Origin: Candidatus Nealsoniibacteriota bacterium
GTDB lineage: Bacteria > Patescibacteriota > Minisyncoccia > Minisyncoccales > UBA6532
Assembly: GCA_016186485.1 (NCBI GenBank)
Contig: JACPLN010000007.1
Coordinates: 1-33,602, forward strand
DNA length: 33,602 nt
Reading direction: 5' to 3'
Shown: positions 5,637 through 29,622 of the stretch, one piece after another
Layout of the letters: every line of letters starts with the position of its first letter
How positions within the stretch are numbered: position 1 is the stretch's first letter
The notes under the pieces: generated by a model
What the model was told of the DNA's origin: nothing
Database searches by the model: none
The model's input: the letters and a program-made list of their open reading frames with translations, nothing else
Position numbers and translations under genes: made by a program

Positions 5637-6680
5637 ATGAAGAAGATTTTAGTAGCAATGTCGGGCGGCGTTGACAGCTCGGTGGCGGCGGCTCTATTAA
5701 AACGGGCCGGTTTTAATGTTGCCGGAGCTTTTTTGCGTTGTTATGAAACTCCGGGATGTCCGGCATTGGAGGATCTTGGAGTCGCAAGGCTGGCTGCGGC
5801 GAAAATAGGCATTCCTTTTTATGTTTTTGATTTTCGCAAAGAATATAAAAAGAAAGTAATTGGCTATTTCGTCAGTGGATACAAAAAAGGCCTGACTCCA
5901 AACCCCGATATTATGTGCAACAAGACCGTTAAGTTCGGGCTTTTGTTTGAAAAAGCAATGGCTTTAGGCTTTGATTATCTGGCTACCGGCCACTACGCCA
6001 GGCTGGAAGAGAAAGGCGGCAAGATTAAACTTTTGAAAGGAAAAGATCCGAACAAAGACCAGTCTTATTTTCTGTACGCAGTAAAACCGGAGTTTTTAAA
6101 AAGAGTTATTTTTCCCGTCGGGGATAAAAAGAAAGCAGAGGTTAGAAAATTAGCAAAAAAGTTCGGTTTGCCAAACGCCCAAAGGCCCGATAGCCAGGGA
6201 ATTTGTTTTGTTGGCCGAGTCAGACTCGGTGATTTTCTTGACCAATATATTAAACCAAAAACAGGAAAAGTCAGGCTTTTCCTTGGCAATGGTGAATATA
6301 AAGAAATCGGTGAGCACCAGGGCGCCCATTACTTTACCATTGGTCAGCGGCAGGGTTTGGGTTTGGGCGGGGGCCCTTATTTCGTTCTGGGTACAGACGT
6401 AAAAAAGAATTTTGTTACCGTGACCAAAAACGAAAAGGATCTTTGCCGGAAAGAAATTATTATTTCTGGCTTAAGCTGGATTTCCGGAGAGCCGAAATTC
6501 CCCTTGAGAGCAACAGTTAAAATTCGCTATCGCCATAAAGGAGGCACAGCCACAATATACAAGATGCCAGACGCTAAATACAGGATATTATTCCAAAAGC
6601 CCCAGCGCGCCATTGCCAAGGGCCAGTCAGCCGTGTTTTACAAAGGCAGCCAGCTTTTGGGCGGGGGCCTGATTGTTTAG
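5637..6680 (+). CDS. mnmA: tRNA 2-thiouridine(34) synthase MnmA
   Basis: MSGGVDSSVAAALLK, NPDIMCNK (catalytic Cys), YLATGHYAR, DPNKDQSYFL, DSQGICFVG, HQGAHYFTIGQRQGLGL. Confidence 0.95.
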   Translation: MKKILVAMSGGVDSSVAAALLKRAGFNVAGAFLRCYETPGCPALEDLGVARLAAAKIGIPFYVFDFRKEYKKKVIGYFVSGYKKGLTPNPDIMCNKTVKFGLLFEKAMALGFDYLATGHYARLEEKGGKIKLLKGKDPNKDQSYFLYAVKPEFLKRVIFPVGDKKKAEVRKLAKKFGLPNAQRPDSQGICFVGRVRLGDFLDQYIKPKTGKVRLFLGNGEYKEIGEHQGAHYFTIGQRQGLGLGGGPYFVLGTDVKKNFVTVTKNEKDLCRKEIIISGLSWISGEPKFPLRATVKIRYRHKGGTATIYKMPDAKYRILFQKPQRAIAKGQSAVFYKGSQLLGGGLIV

Positions 6681-6738: not shown

Positions 6739-7143
6739 TTGGAATACAGCGTTGAAGTAGGGGATTTTGTAAAACAAGGCAGTTTGGACGATCTTTGCCA
6801 AATGGTTTTTTCTCATAATTTACAGGCACTCTACTACACAGAAGTAGGCGATCAAAAATTTTTGATAGCGTTTTCTGCGGCTACCTCTAACTCAGTAGTC
6901 AACAACAGGAATCTCGTGGAAGTGTTTATTACAGAAGTTATTTTCTCCCCAGTAGACGCCTACAAAAGAATGGTGGTTTACGACCATAAAAAAGGTTTTT
7001 CCCAATATTTGGATAAAGACAAAGACGGCAGCATGATTTCCGATCAGACAATGAATATTCCCGTCTTTTGGGTCCCCTGCATCAGAGTGTCTAAAATAGC
7101 AGAAAAGATAGAAAAAATAATAAGCAATAAACTTCAACCATAA
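6739..7143 (+). CDS. Hypothetical protein
   Basis: Complete ORF (TTG start) flanked by a promoter and a terminator. Confidence 0.7.
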   Translation: MEYSVEVGDFVKQGSLDDLCQMVFSHNLQALYYTEVGDQKFLIAFSAATSNSVVNNRNLVEVFITEVIFSPVDAYKRMVVYDHKKGFSQYLDKDKDGSMISDQTMNIPVFWVPCIRVSKIAEKIEKIISNKLQP

Positions 7144-7210: not shown

Positions 7211-7762
7211 GTGATTAAGATGTGGAATAGGAAAATAGTAAACGTCTTGAAAGGATTTTTGCCAAGAAAGAATATCGGCGGCTACATAGACGCCGAGACC
7301 GCAAAAACCAGTTCCGTTATGGATGCCGATTTCTTAACAAATGAGTTTATGAATACGGGTTTGAACATGGTTCAAGCAGAAGAAGAAAGGGGTATGGCCC
7401 AATCAGGATTGATGGTTTTTCTTTTCAGAGACAAGTCTTCTTTGGCGAAAGAAGCATATATCGCCCATTTTAGGGGTTCGCCGGTATTCTCGCTTGTCAG
7501 GGGCGAAAAAGGCTGGGGCATTTTTGAACTAAAGCCCTTAGTCGTGAGGCCGCTGGAAGAGATAGTTTCATTAGGAGGATTGACTTGGGAAACAGCAAAA
7601 AATCTGGCCGTAATTAGACAAAAGATGGCTGGCAGGGGTGAGGCAGAACCGTACCCGGAAGCGATAGATCCTCTTTGGGAGAACCAAATTAGCCAAGTGC
7701 TAATGCCTTTTATCCAGTTAAACCCGGTTATTAAAGGTATTGATGTAAGCTACATAACCTAG
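7211..7762 (+). CDS. Hypothetical protein
   Basis: Complete ORF; TTGACA at 7165; terminator downstream. Confidence 0.7.
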   Translation: MIKMWNRKIVNVLKGFLPRKNIGGYIDAETAKTSSVMDADFLTNEFMNTGLNMVQAEEERGMAQSGLMVFLFRDKSSLAKEAYIAHFRGSPVFSLVRGEKGWGIFELKPLVVRPLEEIVSLGGLTWETAKNLAVIRQKMAGRGEAEPYPEAIDPLWENQISQVLMPFIQLNPVIKGIDVSYIT

Positions 7763-7788
7763 ACAGCAGACTTTCTGCTGTTTTTTTG
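7763..7788 (+). terminator. Rho-independent terminator
   Basis: CAGCAGA CTT TCTGCTG TTTTTTT. Confidence 0.85.
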
Positions 7789-7804: not shown

Positions 7805-7832
7805 TTGACAGATTGAGTTCATTGGGTAGAAT
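7805..7832 (+). promoter_or_regulatory. Sigma70-type promoter for the presenilin-like gene
   Basis: TTGACA - 16 nt - TAGAAT. Confidence 0.65.
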
Positions 7833-7846
7833 AAAATGGAAGTTCT

Positions 7847-8713
7847 TTGACAAAAATGTCTTTTCTTTTGCCGATAGGAATGAGTATAGTGCTCGCTTGG
7901 TGTTTTGCCATTCTGATTAGCGCATCTAACCTTTCTTTGCCCCAATTGAGCATAACCCCATTCTTGGAATCCGAAAACGCAATATCAACTCCTGCGCCGT
8001 ATCTCAATGCTCTTATGGTAATCGTGTTAATGGCGATATCAGGAACCCTGTTTTTTACCTTTATGAGTCTCATAAAGAATATACTGAAGATTTTCATAAT
8101 GATAGTTTTGGGGCTGGCTAGCTTTAGCGTTACTTTTATCCATACCAGTCTTCTGCTCACGCTTTTTTTGCCAGGCTACCCTCAAGAATCCATACTTATC
8201 GCCGTTTCTATATTCGCTATGTTTGTTGTTCCCGTTGCGGCGGTAAATCAGAAAGAATTAGTGTCGCTTTCCGCTCTTTTATACATAGGCGCATCTCTCG
8301 GCGCTCGTTGGGCTGGCTCGGTGCCTTTCTGGACGGTTATCGTGTTGTTGGTCGGGGTTTCTTTCTTTGATATCATAATGGTATTTAAAGGATACTTGAG
8401 TTCTTTCCGCAATGCTCCATATAGAGGGACGGACAACGGAAAAGATAAAGCAGCAAATCCTCTTAAAGGGCTTATGCTGGATTTTGGAGGGGTAAGCATG
8501 GGTCTCGGGGATATATTCTTCTATTCTATGACAGTCGTTTTTTCCATTTTGCATTTCGGCTTTTTTAGCGCGCTGTTTGCGAGCGCCGGTATTCTAATAG
8601 GTTCCGCGATTACCCTCGCGCTTATTTCGCGCCAAAACGGAAAAGCTCTTCCCGGATTGCCAATTCCCATTTTCATGAGTTTAGGACTACTGTTTTTCAG
8701 CACCATTTTGTAG
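7847..8713 (+). CDS. Presenilin/signal-peptide-peptidase-like GxGD intramembrane aspartyl protease
   Basis: Polytopic membrane protein with SFFDIIMVFKG (YD-type Asp), VSMGLGDIFFYSM (GxGD) and KALPGLPIPIFMSLGLLFF (PAL-type motif), in the expected order. The start could be TTG 7847 or ATG 7856. Confidence 0.82.
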   Translation: MTKMSFLLPIGMSIVLAWCFAILISASNLSLPQLSITPFLESENAISTPAPYLNALMVIVLMAISGTLFFTFMSLIKNILKIFIMIVLGLASFSVTFIHTSLLLTLFLPGYPQESILIAVSIFAMFVVPVAAVNQKELVSLSALLYIGASLGARWAGSVPFWTVIVLLVGVSFFDIIMVFKGYLSSFRNAPYRGTDNGKDKAANPLKGLMLDFGGVSMGLGDIFFYSMTVVFSILHFGFFSALFASAGILIGSAITLALISRQNGKALPGLPIPIFMSLGLLFFSTIL

Positions 8714-8729: not shown

Positions 8730-8759
8730 GCAGCAATATGCTTTGCTGCTGTTTTTTTG
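8730..8759 (+). terminator. Rho-independent terminator
   Basis: GCAGCAA tatgct TTGCTGC TGTTTTTTT. Confidence 0.85.
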
Positions 8760-8779: not shown

Positions 8780-10504
8780 ATGACTTCAAATGAACTGCGG
8801 CAAAGATTTTTGGATTTTTTTGAAAAAAAAGGGCATAAAATTGTGCCATCTTCTTCGCTTGTCCCCCAAGATTCAAGCGTTCTTTTTACCAGCGCCGGCA
8901 TGCAGCAGTTTAAACCCTATTTTTTGGGCGAAAGAAGCCCTTACGGAAAGAAAGTTGCCAGTTCCCAGAAATGTTTCAGAACCTCTGATATTGATGAGGT
9001 CGGTGACGAACGACACTTAACTTTTTTTGAGATGCTGGGAAATTTTTCTTTCGGCGATTATTTCAAGCAAGAAGCAATAAACTATGCCTATGATTTTTTA
9101 AAGGAAATAGGACTGCCAATCCAATACGTAAGCGTTTTTAAAGGCGACAAACAAGTTCCTAAAGATGAAGAATCGGTTAAAATCTGGAAAAAGCTGGGGG
9201 TAAAAAAAATCAAGGGAGCTGGAAGAGAAGACAATTTCTGGGGGCCGACAGGCAAAGAGGGCCCTTGCGGGCCAACCACCGAAATTTATATTAATGATAC
9301 CGAGATTTGGAATATTGTTTTCAATGAGTATTATCAAGACGATAAGGGCAAATTAACCAAGCTGAAACAAAAAGGAGTGGATACGGGCATGGGGTTGGAG
9401 CGTCTAGCGATGGTTTCCCAAAACAAAAAAAATATATTTGAAACAGATTTGTTTTCAAAGATAACCAAAGAGATAAGCGGCCAAGACAGGGCGAAAAGAA
9501 TAATCGCAGACCACGTAAAAGGAGCGGTTTTTCTCATTGCAGACGGCATCCTGCCCTCAAACATTGAAAGAGGATATATTTTAAGGCGGATAGTCAGAAG
9601 AGCAATCAGGTTTGGGAAATTACTGGGGTTAGCTTCCGGCTTTCTTATTCCTTTGGCTCAAAAAGTCGTTGATATTTATAAAGACGTTTACCCTGAACTT
9701 TTATCAAAGCAGCCAGACATTCTGACGGTAATTCAGCAGGAAGACGAAAAGTTCGGCAAGACCCTGGAAAAGGGACTGAAGGAATTTGAAAAACTGGCTA
9801 TCAAAATAGAAAATGGCGGAACCGCAGGGATTGGAGGAAATGATACATTTATGCTTTACGAAACATATGGTTTTCCCTTTGAACTCACAAAGGAGTTGGC
9901 AAAGGAAAGAGGCATGAAAGTCAATGAGAAAGCCCACAAGGAATTTGAAGAGCGACACAAAGAAATCTCTCGCGCTGGGTTTGAAGGAAAATTCGGCGGG
10001 CATGGGCTTTTGTTGGACACCGGCGAATTAAAAGCCGCTAATCAAGAAGAGTTAAAAAAAGTAACGAGGTTGCATACCGCAACCCATCTTTTGCAAGCCG
10101 CTTTAAGGAAAGTTTTGGGAGAAGAGGTGCATCAGGCAGGATCTGACATTACCGTTGAGCGAACCCGTTTTGACTTTTCTTTTGGCAGAAAACTAACTTC
10201 AGAGGAATTAAAAAAGACAGAAGATTTAGTAAACGGGGTTATTTCCAAAGATTTTAAAGTAGAATACAAGGAAACGCCCTACGAAGAAGCAATTAGAAGC
10301 GGGGCGCTTTATTCTAAAAGAGAAAAATACCCTTCGGTGGTAAGGGTCTATTCTGTTTTTGACGAAAATACAAAAGAAGTTTTTTCAAAGGAATTATGCG
10401 GCGGACCCCATGTCCAGAGGGCGTCTGAAATCGGCCGATTCAAAATAATCAAAGAAGAATCGTCGGGAGCAGGCATCCGCCGCATAAGAGCAGTAGTAGA
10501 GTGA
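8780..10504 (+). CDS. alaS: Alanine--tRNA ligase (compact form)
   Basis: LRQRFLDFFEKKGHKIVPSSSLVP, FTSAGMQQFKPYFLG, HLTFFEMLGNFSFGDYFK, HTATHLLQAALRKVLG, LCGGPHV; ends after the editing domain (574 aa). Confidence 0.95.
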   Translation: MTSNELRQRFLDFFEKKGHKIVPSSSLVPQDSSVLFTSAGMQQFKPYFLGERSPYGKKVASSQKCFRTSDIDEVGDERHLTFFEMLGNFSFGDYFKQEAINYAYDFLKEIGLPIQYVSVFKGDKQVPKDEESVKIWKKLGVKKIKGAGREDNFWGPTGKEGPCGPTTEIYINDTEIWNIVFNEYYQDDKGKLTKLKQKGVDTGMGLERLAMVSQNKKNIFETDLFSKITKEISGQDRAKRIIADHVKGAVFLIADGILPSNIERGYILRRIVRRAIRFGKLLGLASGFLIPLAQKVVDIYKDVYPELLSKQPDILTVIQQEDEKFGKTLEKGLKEFEKLAIKIENGGTAGIGGNDTFMLYETYGFPFELTKELAKERGMKVNEKAHKEFEERHKEISRAGFEGKFGGHGLLLDTGELKAANQEELKKVTRLHTATHLLQAALRKVLGEEVHQAGSDITVERTRFDFSFGRKLTSEELKKTEDLVNGVISKDFKVEYKETPYEEAIRSGALYSKREKYPSVVRVYSVFDENTKEVFSKELCGGPHVQRASEIGRFKIIKEESSGAGIRRIRAVVE

Positions 10505-22912: not shown

Positions 22913-22941
22913 ATAATATCACATTATTATTTATTTGTCAA
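22913..22941 (-). promoter_or_regulatory. Sigma70-type promoter, minus strand
   Basis: TTGACA - 17 nt - TATTAT, directly abutting the annotated ATG. Confidence 0.6.
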
Positions 22942-23627
22942 TACTAATGACAGGAAAATTTATTAGCGTAGTATATGTTTTCGTCATTGGCGCAATCGGC
23001 GGCATTTTTGCCGATCAGATTCTTTGGCCCTATTTTATTGAGAGGCCGCTTTTCTATCAGTATAAGTTAGAGCAAAGCCCTGTTTACGTAACAGAGAGGA
23101 AACAAGTGACAATAAAAGAAAATCAGGCTCTTGAAGAAGCGGTTGAGAAAGTGAAAAAAGTTGTAGTCGGGGTTTATCCCCAAGGATCCGGCATTATTGT
23201 AACTTCCGATGGCCTTTTGGTTACCCTTAACGATCTTTTGCCGCAAGGTTCAAAATTCTATTTTTTGGTTGGCGCTTCCCGGCCGGCATACCAGGTGTTG
23301 AAAAGAGACGTTAAGAATAATTTAGCTTTGGTAAAAGTTGAGGAAGATAGATTATCAACCGCTGGCTTTGCCAGTTTTGATAGTTTAAAAGCGGGGGAGA
23401 GGGTATTTTTGGTTGGCAGTTTGTTTGAGGAGCAGTCGGTAAACGAAGGAATTATTGCTTCAATTGATAAAGATTTTGTTAAGACTAATATCTTTGACGA
23501 AGCCAAGCTCGCTGGCAGTCCTTTGTTTGATATTGAAGGAAACTTAGTCGGCTTGAGCGAAATTGACGAATCCGGCAGAGTTAAGGCTGTGCCGGTTAAC
23601 AAAATAAAGGAATTCATCGGATTTTGA
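22935..23627 (+). CDS. Membrane-anchored HtrA/trypsin-fold protein, predicted pseudoprotease
   Basis: GSGIIVTSDGLLVTLNDLL, NNLALVKVE, KLAGSPLFDIEGNLVGL align by eye to DegP-type motifs but lack H, D and S. The start could be TTG 22935 or ATG 22947. Confidence 0.7.
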   Translation: MSILMTGKFISVVYVFVIGAIGGIFADQILWPYFIERPLFYQYKLEQSPVYVTERKQVTIKENQALEEAVEKVKKVVVGVYPQGSGIIVTSDGLLVTLNDLLPQGSKFYFLVGASRPAYQVLKRDVKNNLALVKVEEDRLSTAGFASFDSLKAGERVFLVGSLFEEQSVNEGIIASIDKDFVKTNIFDEAKLAGSPLFDIEGNLVGLSEIDESGRVKAVPVNKIKEFIGF

Positions 23628-23719: not shown

Positions 23720-24478
23720 GTGGTTGTAAAAGCTTCTATTGTGTCAGAACAGGGCAGAAGGGATCATATGGAAGACGCTTATTTTCTGGCTTCAAACCTT
23801 GCCGGAAAGGGTTGGATTTTCGGAGGAGTTTATGATGGCCACAGAGGCAGCTATGCAGCCGAATATGCGTCAAAGAACATTTACAGGAGATTTTTGGGAA
23901 GTTTCTTGAGAATTCATTCTCCGGAAAAGGCGTTTATAAGAAGCTATGAGAGAGTTTCCAAAGAACTTAGCAATCAGGTTTCCGGAACGTGCGCCGCGAA
24001 CTTCTTTATCAAAGACGGGAAGATTTACTACGCAAATGCCGGAGACGCCAGGATTATTTTAGTCCAAAAACGGCAGGCGCTTCAATTGACTGCTGTTCAC
24101 AGGGCAAATATGAAATTTGAAAGGGATAGGATTGAAATGATGGGCGGAAAGATAGAGGATGGTTACGTTTGGAGCGGACAACTAGGATTGCAGCCCACTA
24201 GAACGCTTGGAGACGAAGACTTTAAGCGAGCGGGGGTGATAGCTGCGCCTTCGGTTGGTTTTCACGAAATTACAAAAGATGATTTGTTTTTGATCGCGGG
24301 AACAGACGGCCTATTTGACGTTATGGGTAAAAGTTCAATATGGGATTTGATGATGATGAAGGGTTTAAATGATGCAAATGAGGTAGCTCGGCTTTTGAAA
24401 GAAGAAGTTTTGAAAAATCCCAAAGCAAGAGATAATCTTACCGTCATAGTTCTTTCCCTTAAACAGTTTTGGCCTTGA
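23720..24478 (+). CDS. PP2C-family Ser/Thr protein phosphatase (eukaryote-like motifs)
   Basis: EQGRRDHMEDAYF, GGVYDGHRGSYAAEY, NAGDARIIL, PTRTLGDEDFK, GTDGLFDVM, RDNLTVIVL. Confidence 0.92.
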   Translation: MVVKASIVSEQGRRDHMEDAYFLASNLAGKGWIFGGVYDGHRGSYAAEYASKNIYRRFLGSFLRIHSPEKAFIRSYERVSKELSNQVSGTCAANFFIKDGKIYYANAGDARIILVQKRQALQLTAVHRANMKFERDRIEMMGGKIEDGYVWSGQLGLQPTRTLGDEDFKRAGVIAAPSVGFHEITKDDLFLIAGTDGLFDVMGKSSIWDLMMMKGLNDANEVARLLKEEVLKNPKARDNLTVIVLSLKQFWP

Positions 24479-24844: not shown

Positions 24845-25420
24845 ATGAAACCGATGAATAGGAAATTTGTTATTCTCGTTCTCGCTGTTTTGTTTTTGGC
24901 CGGAGGATTTTTTTATTGGTGGAATAACCAAGCGGATGTGAGAGGGTTGAACAAAACTTTGCCCGATGGTGTTCGGGTAACAAAAAGTTTTTTCGGAAGC
25001 GAATACAAAGTTGTTAACAAAATTGATGGATATTCGTTTAAAGTTCCACCCGAGTGGAAAGGGGTAAAAGAAATAGAGTATGTACCCGAGAGGACAGAAC
25101 AAGGGTATACGGGGACTAGTATTAGTGTAGAAGGAAGCGAAGGGATAAAGAGAGATAGGGTTTTTACTATAGATAAGTTTAAAATAAAAGAGCAAAATAT
25201 CGATTTGTTGCAATGGGTAAAGGATAACTTTAAAGTTTTTGAGCTGGTGGGTGAATTTACCCAGGAGAGCATTGGAGGTTTTGAAATTGTTAAAACACGG
25301 GAAAATATTCACTTATTGGGAATGTATATATATCACTTTCAGAGAAATTTTGCCGCATATTCTATTACTGGCGGTTCCGAAGAATTTATTCGTTATATTA
25401 TTGCTAATGGAAAATGGTAA
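24845..25420 (+). CDS. Membrane-anchored or secreted hypothetical protein
   Basis: N-terminal TM (FVILVLAVLFLAGGFFYWW); AGGAG RBS; stop overlaps the next start (ATGGTAA). Confidence 0.7.
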   Translation: MKPMNRKFVILVLAVLFLAGGFFYWWNNQADVRGLNKTLPDGVRVTKSFFGSEYKVVNKIDGYSFKVPPEWKGVKEIEYVPERTEQGYTGTSISVEGSEGIKRDRVFTIDKFKIKEQNIDLLQWVKDNFKVFELVGEFTQESIGGFEIVKTRENIHLLGMYIYHFQRNFAAYSITGGSEEFIRYIIANGKW

Positions 25421-28400
25421 ACTTATTGGATTCGGATAAAATTAAATCTTTTTTTAGAAGGGAAGGCAGGCTTTTGGTGATTACTCTGGTAATCGCTTTT
25501 TTGTTTGCGAGTAGTTTTCAGACGGCGAAAGCGCAAATAAGCGATGAAACTTTAGATAAAATAGAGGAATTTTTAAAGTTATCTAACCTGCCGGAATTTC
25601 TTAAGTTCAGCAAAGAAGATATTAAAAAAATTCTGAAAAAAGAGGTTGACTCCGCAATTCTGCCGGATTTCACTTATGAAATGTATATTTCGGGAATTAT
25701 TAACGAAGTTGATTTCTTGGATTATGTTTTGAGCCAGAGATACAAAGAAGAAAACAGGGAATACTTTAATCGTATTTTGAACAATAAGCTTAATTTAGTT
25801 TCGTACTGGAAAAAGACCGGTAAAGATATAAGCTCGTTACTTAAGCAGGGGAGTTCTGCTAGTCCAATTTCCGTTTTAGCGCTGCAGAGCGTTGAGATGA
25901 CGAACAATGTAGTTGAGATTTTGGGTGTCGTAAAAACCTTGGAAGATAGTAAAAGATATGATGGCCTATGGTATTATTTTGACCAAAGGAAAAATGGGCA
26001 CGAACCACATGATGTTGTGTGGGGTGAGGCTAAGTATGTAATGGGATTCGCGAGTAAGTCGACCTCTTTTAGGAGGCCAACAATCATAGCTAAAGATATG
26101 AGTTCCGAGCAGCTAGAGTTACAGTTTGCTACGCTTTACGACGAATGGGGTAAATACGCGACGCCCTATGGGTTGAGTGATGATATAAAAGAGCAGGTGA
26201 GGGAGGAGGTAGAAACAACCTTGGTAATGGCGGCAGAAGAATATAGATTGGTCCAGGAAAAAAAGAAAGAAAAGGAGGCGTTGCTTCCTCGGAGGAAGCA
26301 ACTGCCCAGGCAGGGTGTGGAAAACATACTGGAGGGAATAGCCAAACAAATAGAAGATATAAAGGTTTTGCTTCAAAAAGGGCGGGGCGTTGCCGCAGCC
26401 TTAGCCAGCAGCATCCAGGAATCTGTATCTCAAATAACCCCATTTGGTGAAACTGGTTTGCTAACTTCTGTAGTTCTAGAACCAATTGCGGAAACTGCCG
26501 AAATGGAAACTTCCGAGGCTCGGCCCCTGCCAGACGAAGCTGAGGGAAACCCATTGACCTTAGATGAATCCCAAGAAGATCTTGATGATATTTCAGAAAG
26601 GATTGAAGATTTAACCCCGGAAATAATTCCAGAGCCAGTAGAATTAGCGGAGGTTGAACCTCTGCTAATTGAACCTCCAGAGGCAATTGAGGAATTTGCG
26701 TCCGCTACTTCTTCAGAAGAAATCGTTTGGTGTAAAACCAAGCTTAGCACAAAGCCGGCGAGAGACAGGGTTATTTTAAGCGAGATTTCCTGGGCAGGAA
26801 CGCCAGCCTCTGTTGATAACGAATGGTTTGAGCTAAAAAACATTTCTTTAGCAGAAGTTAATCTAACCGGGTGGCAAATTCTTGATAAAGACGGCCAAAT
26901 TAAAATCGCAATTAGCAGCGGAGGTTCAACCTCCGCTAACGGGTTTTATGTTTTAGAGCGCCAAAGCGATGAGGTAATTCCTAACGTTAAAGCTGACCTT
27001 ATTTATGAAGGCCCGATAGAAGACCGGAACGAAGCCATTTATCTTTTTGATCAGGATTGCCAGCTCCAAGATTTAGTTGAAGCCAATCCTGATTGGCCGG
27101 CCGGCGACCCAAACATGCGTTCATCAATGGAAAGAGGAAAAGATTTTTCTTGGCATACCTACCTTGGATACGCGCAAGATAGGGTATTTGGCACCCCAAA
27201 AAGCGAAAGCAGTCCGGAAGTATTTGTTTTTACGCCGCCGGCGCCAAAGGAGGATATTAAAATTTTGATTACAGAAATAGGAACGGACCATTCTTCTTCA
27301 ACAGACTACGATTTTATTGAGTTTTACAATCCCAACAATAAATCAGTTGATATTTCCGGGTTCCAACTCAAAAAGAGAGTTTCTACAGGAACGGAGTATT
27401 CAATAAAGGTTTTTCAAGAAGCTAGCATTATTGCGTCAAAAACTTATTATATATGGGCAAATTCCAACTATTCGGCAGCCGGATTAATCACAGCTAACGC
27501 AACCACCACTCAAACGCTAGCCGCGAATAACAGCGTCGCTTTATTGGACGCGGACAAAAAGGTTATTGACGAGATAGCATGGGGAACAAGCACAAACCCA
27601 TTTTTAGAAACAAAACCGTTTCCAAGCAATCCTGATGATAAAAAAAGTTTAAGCAGGAAATGGGTTAATTCCTCCAATAGTTATCAAGACAGCAACAATA
27701 ACGCTGAAGATTTTGAACTTAAAACATTTACACCCGGAGCCCGGAGTTCAGAAGAGAACGGAGGCGGCGGTGGCAATTCCGAAGAAACCCCCACATTAGA
27801 GGCGGTAATTAACGAAATTGCCTGGATGGGAACAAAAGCCAGCGCTCAAGACGAATGGATAGAGCTTTACAACAATACCACTTCAAGCATTGACCTAGAC
27901 GGCTGGCGGCTGGTTTCTTCCGATGGCGGCCCTGACATTGTTTTTTCCAGCACCACCGCCACCACCACTAGTCTTATCGCCAAAGGATTTTATCTGGTTG
28001 AAAGGACCAATAACAACACAATCAGCGATATTTTTGCCGAGTGGACAGGCAGCTTTGGCAGCGGATTGCACAACACCAGCTGCGAAGTTCTTTCTCTGTA
28101 TGATAAAAATAACAAACTTATAGATAAAACAGCTTGTCTTGACAGCAGCGGCTGGCCGGCTGGAATAGCTTCACCCAATTATATTTCAATGGAAAGGATT
28201 AACTCTACTTCTACCGGTACCAGCACCGACAACTGGGCTAACAACAATAGGATTACCAAGAATGGTTTGGACGCAAACGGTACAGTTATTAACGGCACTC
28301 CTAAATCTCAAAACAGCGTTTCCAAAAATAAGACGGAAATTTCCGGAGTCCTTGATTTTACGGAAGATTTTACTTTAACGTATCTCGGCAGTCCTTATTT

Positions 28401-29622
28401 TATTGACGGTTCAATAAACGTCGCTTCTACAACAAAACTAACCATAGAACCGGGGGTAATTATTAAATTCAAAGACGGCTTTTGGGATTCCCAGTTCAAA
28501 GTAACGGGTTCTTTGCTAGCTAGAGGCGAGGCGGACAAAAAGATCGTTTTCACCTCTTCAAGCACTTCGCCGACAGCGGGCGACTGGCAATGGCTTTATC
28601 TAGAAAACGCCAGCACTACATTGGAAAATGTGGCCATAAGCTATGCTGGCAAGAGAGAAGAAGGTTCTCCGCCGCTAACTTACGGTTCAATTTATGTTGA
28701 TGGAGGAAATTTAACCCTTAAAAATTCAACGATTGAGCAAAGCGGGACTATAGGAGTTTGGATTAGAAATTCTACCAGCACCATCATTGACGGGGTAACG
28801 TTTGACGACAACAATAATATTTCTTGGGGAAAGCCGGCCGCAGTTTACGTTGAGAATTCGGGATCTACAATTAAAAATTCTACTTTTACCAATAACAATA
28901 TAGGCATACTTGTGGAAAATTTTTCAGCCCCTGCTATTGAGAATAATTCTTTTACAAACAACCAAAAACCAATCCAAATTGGCAGTATTTTGCCTAATAT
29001 TTCCGGAAACGCCGCTTCAAGCAATACCGATCATAATGGTATTTCTTTGGATAGTTTAACCTTGCCAGGGGCGCAGACTTCGGCTGTCTGGAGAAATGCC
29101 GGCCTGCCATACGTTGTCAATACTCTTTATTTGGCTTCGGGCGTCAATCTGACTATGGAGGCCAGCACCACGATTAAGTTTTTGGACCAGGGCAACATAG
29201 AGATAGCAGGCACTTTGCAGGCCCTGGGAGAACCTCAAAACAAAATAACTTTTACCTCTGTTTCTAGCAGCCCGACTGCTGGCAGTTGGAAATATATTTT
29301 GTTTAATTCTTCCAGCGCCAACTCTTTGTTGAGAAATACCATTATCAGTTACGGCGGAGGGTATTTGGGGGCGGTAAGGGTTAGCAGCGGCTCCTTGTCT
29401 GTGGAAAACTCCATATTTGATAATAACTTGTATTCTGGGTTATACTTGGATAATGCCAGCAGCACTGTTTCTGGCACACTTTTTAAAAACCATTCTGCTT
29501 TAGGAACATCTAAAGGAATCAATGTATTTGCCGGAAGCTGTCCTGTTGTTTCCGGCCTAACCTTTGGAAGCGGCGCCGAAAGCAATTCAATTGACATTTA
29601 TCCGGAAACCTGTAATCCTTAA
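25414..29622 (+). CDS. Large surface protein: N-terminal signal/TM, three lamin-tail-like domains, C-terminal parallel beta-helix
   Basis: LTD-like repeats: VILSEISWAGTPASVDNEWFELKN, ILITEIGTDHSSSTDYDFIEFYNP, AVINEIAWMGTKASAQDEWIELYN; then repeated ADKKIVFTSSSTSPTAGDW / QNKITFTSVSSSPTAGSW and NSTF..N.IGI beta-helix rungs. Confidence 0.85.
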   Translation: MVNLLDSDKIKSFFRREGRLLVITLVIAFLFASSFQTAKAQISDETLDKIEEFLKLSNLPEFLKFSKEDIKKILKKEVDSAILPDFTYEMYISGIINEVDFLDYVLSQRYKEENREYFNRILNNKLNLVSYWKKTGKDISSLLKQGSSASPISVLALQSVEMTNNVVEILGVVKTLEDSKRYDGLWYYFDQRKNGHEPHDVVWGEAKYVMGFASKSTSFRRPTIIAKDMSSEQLELQFATLYDEWGKYATPYGLSDDIKEQVREEVETTLVMAAEEYRLVQEKKKEKEALLPRRKQLPRQGVENILEGIAKQIEDIKVLLQKGRGVAAALASSIQESVSQITPFGETGLLTSVVLEPIAETAEMETSEARPLPDEAEGNPLTLDESQEDLDDISERIEDLTPEIIPEPVELAEVEPLLIEPPEAIEEFASATSSEEIVWCKTKLSTKPARDRVILSEISWAGTPASVDNEWFELKNISLAEVNLTGWQILDKDGQIKIAISSGGSTSANGFYVLERQSDEVIPNVKADLIYEGPIEDRNEAIYLFDQDCQLQDLVEANPDWPAGDPNMRSSMERGKDFSWHTYLGYAQDRVFGTPKSESSPEVFVFTPPAPKEDIKILITEIGTDHSSSTDYDFIEFYNPNNKSVDISGFQLKKRVSTGTEYSIKVFQEASIIASKTYYIWANSNYSAAGLITANATTTQTLAANNSVALLDADKKVIDEIAWGTSTNPFLETKPFPSNPDDKKSLSRKWVNSSNSYQDSNNNAEDFELKTFTPGARSSEENGGGGGNSEETPTLEAVINEIAWMGTKASAQDEWIELYNNTTSSIDLDGWRLVSSDGGPDIVFSSTTATTTSLIAKGFYLVERTNNNTISDIFAEWTGSFGSGLHNTSCEVLSLYDKNNKLIDKTACLDSSGWPAGIASPNYISMERINSTSTGTSTDNWANNNRITKNGLDANGTVINGTPKSQNSVSKNKTEISGVLDFTEDFTLTYLGSPYFIDGSINVASTTKLTIEPGVIIKFKDGFWDSQFKVTGSLLARGEADKKIVFTSSSTSPTAGDWQWLYLENASTTLENVAISYAGKREEGSPPLTYGSIYVDGGNLTLKNSTIEQSGTIGVWIRNSTSTIIDGVTFDDNNNISWGKPAAVYVENSGSTIKNSTFTNNNIGILVENFSAPAIENNSFTNNQKPIQIGSILPNISGNAASSNTDHNGISLDSLTLPGAQTSAVWRNAGLPYVVNTLYLASGVNLTMEASTTIKFLDQGNIEIAGTLQALGEPQNKITFTSVSSSPTAGSWKYILFNSSSANSLLRNTIISYGGGYLGAVRVSSGSLSVENSIFDNNLYSGLYLDNASSTVSGTLFKNHSALGTSKGINVFAGSCPVVSGLTFGSGAESNSIDIYPETCNP
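26281..26301. repeat. Palindromic repeat, family i copy 4, inside a CDS (LLPRRKQLP)
   Basis: TTGCTTCCTCGGAGGAAGCAA followed by CTGCCCAGG. Confidence 0.95.
26642..26670. repeat. Palindromic repeat, family ii copy 1, inside a CDS
   Basis: AATTAGCGGAGGTT-G-AACCTCTGCTAATT (one mismatch). Confidence 0.88.
26917..26937. repeat. Palindromic repeat, family ii copy 2, inside the same CDS
   Basis: AGCGGAGGTT-C-AACCTCCGCT (perfect). Confidence 0.88.

Follow-up and report, generated by a model that had tools for sequence, protein, structure and literature searches.

Presenilin-type proteases, which have been recognised in eukaryotes and in Asgard archaea, use two intramembrane aspartates to cut transmembrane segments. 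Presenilin is the proteolytic core of the Alzheimer's-linked gamma-secretase, for which helper proteins are required in animals. The type IV prepilin peptidases (A24) are the other GxGD family. PSH of Methanoculleus marisnigri (PDB 4HYC/4HYG), used here for comparison, is of the archaeal signal-peptide-peptidase type (PF06550). Archaeal PSH cuts transmembrane segments without accessory components (PMC9282858, PMC2947513). According to an earlier survey, most Asgard proteomes contain presenilin homologues (PMC7997004). Our literature searches found no paper describing a bacterial presenilin-type protease.

Here we describe a predicted presenilin-family intramembrane aspartyl protease gene in a 33,602-nucleotide stretch of DNA (the window) from a Candidatus Nealsoniibacteriota bacterium. 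The gene and all features given below lie on the forward strand. The open reading frame (ORF) runs from 7847 to 8713 and would encode 288 aa from a TTG start at 7847 or 285 aa from an ATG start at 7856, in which case the gene occupies 7856..8713. Translation could begin at either codon, since the ATG lies just 3' of a promoter close to consensus. An initial annotation, made from the letters of the DNA, had called the product a presenilin-like GxGD protease in a CPR-like bacterium. Genome size and gene content likewise suggest a CPR (Patescibacteria-like) organism. The protease call was supported by a PF01080 match over the cut-off, by a phylogenetic position on the Asgard side, and by a structure search that returned presenilins first.

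The annotation had proposed a search against family profiles. The Pfam Presenilin model (PF01080) matched the ORF at 46.2 bits (E 3.6e-12), where the curated cut-off is 34.3. Up to E 10 the ORF had no other Pfam match, to PF06550 or otherwise, and no NCBIfam model matched. Type IV prepilin peptidases have the same GxGD wording, which could point to an A24 enzyme. However, the ORF has no PF01478 match, and the genome carries a separate A24 gene on another contig (G000:C9:66395-66715 on contig C9, L129; 60.7 bits). The family and fold searches refute a prepilin peptidase identity, and we give it a negligible probability. A sequence comparison with the PDB gave human presenilin-1 and presenilin-2 as the only relatives, with a best E value of 6.9e-6. 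The alignment to human presenilin-1 (PSEN1) spans GLGD..FYS and the KALP.LPI C-terminal region and extends, weakly, over the N-terminal half too.

We then compared the ORF with two profiles built without its protein, one of Asgard presenilins and one of the SPP-type proteins of its own phylum. The ORF scored 131 bits with the Asgard presenilin profile and 27.8 bits with the phylum SPP profile. Human PSEN1 scored 94 and 14 bits, respectively, while PSH did the opposite, with 43 bits on the Asgard presenilin profile and 116 on the phylum SPP profile. The phylum's SPP-type proteins reached at most 61 bits on the Asgard profile. As controls for that profile, 200 shuffles of the ORF's letters gave a best score of -0.4 bits, and the best of the other ORFs in the window scored 3.2. 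With a profile of the Asgard proteins plus the window's own protein, PSEN1 was found at E 2.6e-39 and PSH at E 9.7e-10. Membership in the presenilin family is well supported.

The motifs agree with this assignment. The initial annotation had quoted FFDIIMVFKG, GVSMGLGDIFFYSM, and KALPGLPIPIFMSLGLLFF, and each is found exactly as quoted; its positions for the two catalytic Asp codons were likewise exact. The first codon, GAT at 8369..8371, encodes D172 (numbered in the 285-aa form) within FFDIIMVFKG, in predicted TM6, and this residue is invariant in an alignment of the ORF with 21 Asgard proteins. The second, GAT at 8510..8512, encodes D219 within MGLGDIFFYSM, at the predicted start of TM7, where GxGD is invariant. 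The equivalent of the PAL motif is PGLP (residues 266-269, 8651..8662) at the start of TM9, with P266, L268, and P269 invariant. Altogether, the 22 proteins agree fully in 10 columns, which include both Asp, GxGD, and P.LP. The GxGD wording of presenilins, GLGD..FYS, is present as GLGDIFFYSM. A TPFLE...LNA segment, located by alignments and a motif scan in the TM1-TM2 loop (residues 34-52, 7955..8011), is also present in human PSEN1 (as TPFTE...LNA) and in a number of Asgard presenilins; the motif scan did not find the same pattern in the phylum's SPP-type proteins. Compared with the signature of the phylum's PSH/SPP-type proteins, the ORF lacks KT.HM after the first Asp, where it has KGYLS, and lacks the Pro four residues after GxGD, where it has GLGDIFFYS.

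The motifs come in the same order as in human presenilin, and their wording differs from it at two places: the ORF has FD where human presenilin has YD, and PGLP where it has PALP. PGLP is the form in most Asgard presenilins. Two otherwise conserved residues are changed, the Tyr before the first Asp to Phe and the Pro after KG to Tyr. These changes, FD for YD and KGY for KGP, could be taken as signs that the protein belongs to the presenilin family but lost proteolysis or never had it, and that it serves instead as, say, a chaperone, a lipid scramblase, or an ion channel. Work cited in PMC7997004 has claimed that archaeal homologues of presenilin act as channels. However, F or W before the first Asp also occurs in some Asgard relatives, and both Asp, GLGD, and PGLP are intact, in columns conserved over 22 proteins. 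A nonproteolytic role is, in our judgment, unlikely, and the protein is probably a protease.

A structure prediction placing the two Asp in TM6 and TM7 had also been proposed. We used an AlphaFold2 model made from three sequences only, with a pLDDT of 47.7. This model has nine long helices, with D172 in helix 6 and D219 at the start of helix 7, so that, as far as a low-confidence model can indicate, the two Asp appear to lie in TM6 and TM7. A Foldseek search of the PDB with the model returned presenilin, PSH, or SPPL2a chains at all of ranks 1-16 and nothing convincing below. The hits to PSEN1 had a Foldseek probability of 1.00. With TM scores of ~0.45 and an rmsd of ~17 A, the search supports the presenilin fold only loosely. 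The TM6-TM7 loop (8414..8503, delimited by predicted helix ends) is short, at ~30 aa, and predicted to be cytosolic. Lys and Arg residues are concentrated in this loop (n = 4), and there are none in the predicted outer loops. This distribution of charge matches the orientation of presenilin.

The proposed phylogeny was built twice. A first tree, which included human PSEN1, put PSEN1 and the ORF both on the Asgard side (split 96/92); its PSEN1 sequence was incomplete, two of its rows were very long, and it left the placement of the ORF undecided (p-AU 0.24). We replaced it with a cleaner tree from which PSEN1 was dropped. In this tree, the ORF groups with Asgard presenilins with a split of 100/99. 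Its branch is long, at ~2 changes per column, and a placement just outside the Asgard presenilins was not rejected (p-AU 0.185).

That long branch and that outside placement are compatible with another origin, in which the gene is a fast-evolving PSH/SPP-type (PF06550) protease of its own phylum, and its likeness to presenilin is due to convergence or to retained ancestral residues. Proteins of this type do occur in the phylum (13 of 384 genomes). A wider profile, with matches in 38 of the 387 class genomes sampled, picks up proteins of this type as well. However, a clade of the ORF with the phylum's SPPs was rejected (p-AU 1.9e-5). The missing PF06550 match and the scores of 131 against 28 bits argue in the same direction, as do the absence of the KTKHM-type and GxGD..P residues and the TM1-TM2 loop segment held in common with human and Asgard presenilins. 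Descent from the phylum's PSH/SPP-type proteases is strongly disfavoured, and we regard it as very improbable.

Across four overlapping samples of the phylum, of 241-387 genomes each, this gene was the sole case of the presenilin type. The PF01080 cut-off was passed by the source genome alone, both in the sample of 384 phylum genomes and in that of 247 genomes from its order. A three-sequence profile (241 genomes) and a 22-sequence profile (387 genomes of the class) gave extra matches of at most 54 bits; with the latter, the ORF itself scored 233 bits. All 19 of the weaker matches that we examined carry the signature YD..(A/S)(V/I)Y.T.HM and G.GD...P. PF06550 proteins are absent from the entire source genome. 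The initial annotation had regarded a bacterial homologue with such presenilin-like motif wording as notable. GxGD proteases of the PSH/SPP type are not rare in the phylum, so that the unusual feature is the presenilin type rather than the occurrence of a bacterial GxGD protease as such.

The phylum's PSH/SPP-type proteases (L010-L022, L025, and L110-L128) are scattered through it and seem little described in the literature that we searched. Several other candidates were set aside. Weak PF01080 matches of 16-22 bits (L005-L009, L023, L024, L026, and L027) were not taken as members, and on inspection L005 and L009 contained no matching protease. L004 and L025 are of the SPP type. L002 matched weakly at the protein level (E 4.8e-4), and its frame, which contains stops, lies next to uvr-type genes.

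Among archaea, our sampling for presenilin-type genes covered the Asgard group, in which 168 of 232 genomes had a family profile match. We also scanned 85,462 named prokaryotic genomes with exact 8-residue peptide patterns. The only confirmed relatives were in two Njordarchaeota (Asgard), L028 and L029; a scan that needs exact 8-residue words shows the nearest relatives rather than the full distribution. Both proteins carry an LGLGDIFFYSM active site and PALP, and GLGDIFFYSM is unchanged between them and the ORF. Against PF01080 one scored 46 bits and the second 27 bits, below the cut-off. Since the nearest relatives found are Asgard archaea, the gene was probably borrowed from an archaeon. 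No relatives were found in plasmids, phages, or viral contigs, and there is thus no sign of a mobile carrier.

The chromosomal surroundings of the gene are bacterial. The 687-kb source genome consists of 10 contigs, with a completeness of 98% and an estimated contamination of 0.02%, and the window lies on a contig of 115 kb. The left neighbour is mnmA (5637..6680; NF001138, 411.9 bits) and the right neighbour is alaS (8780..10504; NF002436, 611 bits), both conserved in related genomes by synteny; infA, rpoA, L17, and clpB are also nearby. In related genomes we observed the recurring order GT2-tpiA-RNaseH-like-(mnmA)-alaS-hypothetical-infA-rpsM. In the sister genome G002, of the same family, the mnmA-alaS gap is 60 bases with no presenilin gene between. 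The G001 genome likewise has no presenilin in the mnmA-alaS interval; it has an ORF there that resembles the hypothetical gene at 7211-7762. The G+C content of the presenilin ORF is 0.43, against 0.42 for the window, and its GC3 is 0.46; both values match those of the neighbours.

A gene of this type in only one genome of the phylum samples could also be an assembly or binning artefact, that is, an archaeal or eukaryotic gene in a bacterial bin. The gene, however, sits inside its contig, in a bin of low estimated contamination. It is flanked by mnmA and alaS, both bacterial, and the arrangement of genes there is conserved throughout the order. It has no intron and no eukaryotic-type loop. We consider an artefact highly improbable. 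The conserved bacterial gene order and the matching G+C and GC3 point to a chromosomal insertion in the lineage rather than a contaminant. Judged by its base composition, the inserted gene is long resident or came from a donor of like composition.

Two hypothetical genes, at 6739-7143 and 7211-7762, also lie between mnmA and alaS and have no Pfam or NCBIfam match. The G001 ORF shares an AHFRG region with 7211-7762 and is at the same place, which indicates that the mnmA-alaS interval is variable. Elsewhere in the window, an incomplete ORF (1-855) has a run of short QLRDQF-like repeats followed by a DUF6745 domain (38 bits over 27). A PP2C-type protein phosphatase (23720-24478, 129.8 bits) adjoins a trypsin-like protease (22935-23627), and an apparently secreted protein of 1402 aa (25414-29622) shows, by eye, repeated lamin-tail-like and beta-helix-like segments.

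The presenilin gene appears to stand alone. A candidate sigma-70-like promoter, TTGACA-16-TAGAAT (7805..7832), matches the consensus at 11 of 12 positions. Promoter-like matches around the ORF were in total no more numerous than in shuffles, and we therefore place weight only on this 11/12 match. Downstream, an intrinsic-terminator-like element (8730..8757) consists of a hairpin at 8730-8749 with a 7-pair stem and a T tail. Direct reading also found a hairpin and T-run at ~7763-7787, directly after the preceding gene, that is absent from the scan list. Given the candidate promoter, the terminator hairpin, and the hairpin after the upstream gene, the earlier claim of a single-gene unit with its own promoter and terminator seems reasonable.

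We think it likely that the gene encodes a cofactor-free intramembrane aspartyl protease of the presenilin family, derived from an archaeon, that clears or releases the stubs of single-pass membrane proteins. The enzyme would be a single chain of nine helices in the bacterial inner membrane. D172 in helix 6 and D219 of GLGD in helix 7 would activate a water molecule within the membrane, and PGLP of helix 9 would help keep the substrate at the active site. It may cut transmembrane stubs, such as the remnants of signal peptides and the tails of shed surface proteins, and so clear or release them. By analogy with archaeal PSH in the test tube, it could work without partner subunits. That the gene seems to have a promoter and a terminator to itself, with no substrate gene linked to it, fits a stand-alone enzyme of this kind. 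The donor was probably an archaeon that carried a presenilin of the Asgard type, Asgard being the archaea sampled, and the gene would have been inserted between mnmA and alaS long enough ago to acquire the base composition of its host.

A stronger version of this proposal takes the protein to be a presenilin proper rather than an SPP relative, acting as a one-gene, cofactor-free protease in a small-genome bacterium and obtained from an Asgard-like archaeon that was possibly its host or a close neighbour. We advance this version tentatively, giving it slightly less than even weight. If it is true, the catalytic core of gamma-secretase could be studied in a bacterial form without nicastrin, APH-1, and PEN-2. 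More generally, this appears to be an isolated bacterial case of a presenilin-type protease, a known kind of protease in an unexpected host, and possibly a minimal presenilin for laboratory work. It would also add to the examples of bacteria with reduced genomes that have acquired an archaeal, eukaryote-like gene. If active, it would be a minimal presenilin whose sequence resembles the catalytic motifs of the human protein more closely than that of the model enzyme PSH does, and so could separate the properties of gamma-secretase that are intrinsic to presenilin from those that derive from its partners.

Compared with known systems, the ORF shares its phylum, size, and catalytic scheme with the SPP-type proteins L010-L022, L025, and L110-L128. 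These differ in matching PF06550 or the phylum SPP profile and in carrying KT.HM and G.GD...P, and they were rejected as its parent clade. PSH resembles it as a single-chain prokaryotic GxGD intramembrane protease that needs no cofactors, as the ORF product presumably would not, and the structure search with the low-confidence model points loosely to the same overall fold. However, the ORF has no PF06550 match, has other residues after both Asp, and falls on a separate side of the tree. The Asgard presenilins L028 and L029 are closer, with both Asp, KG after TM6, GLGD..FYSM, and P(A/G)LP. Asgard presenilins also have an acidic TM1-TM2 loop followed by LN, a length of ~285-320 aa, and a short TM6-TM7 loop; the ORF differs from them in its bacterial host, in an overall identity of 23-31%, and in F for Y and KGY for KGP. 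Human presenilin-1 and -2 (gamma-secretase, MEROPS A22A) are longer, at 467 aa against ~285 aa, have PALP where the ORF has PGLP, and have a long TM6-TM7 loop with an endoproteolysis site, against a loop of ~30 aa here. A search for gamma-secretase partners, covering APH-1 only and run without a positive control, gave no APH-1 match in the source genome. Human presenilins nevertheless have GLGD.(I/F)FYS and KALP.LPI motifs nearly identical to those of the ORF, and they share with it the TPF.E...LNA loop and the same order of motifs.
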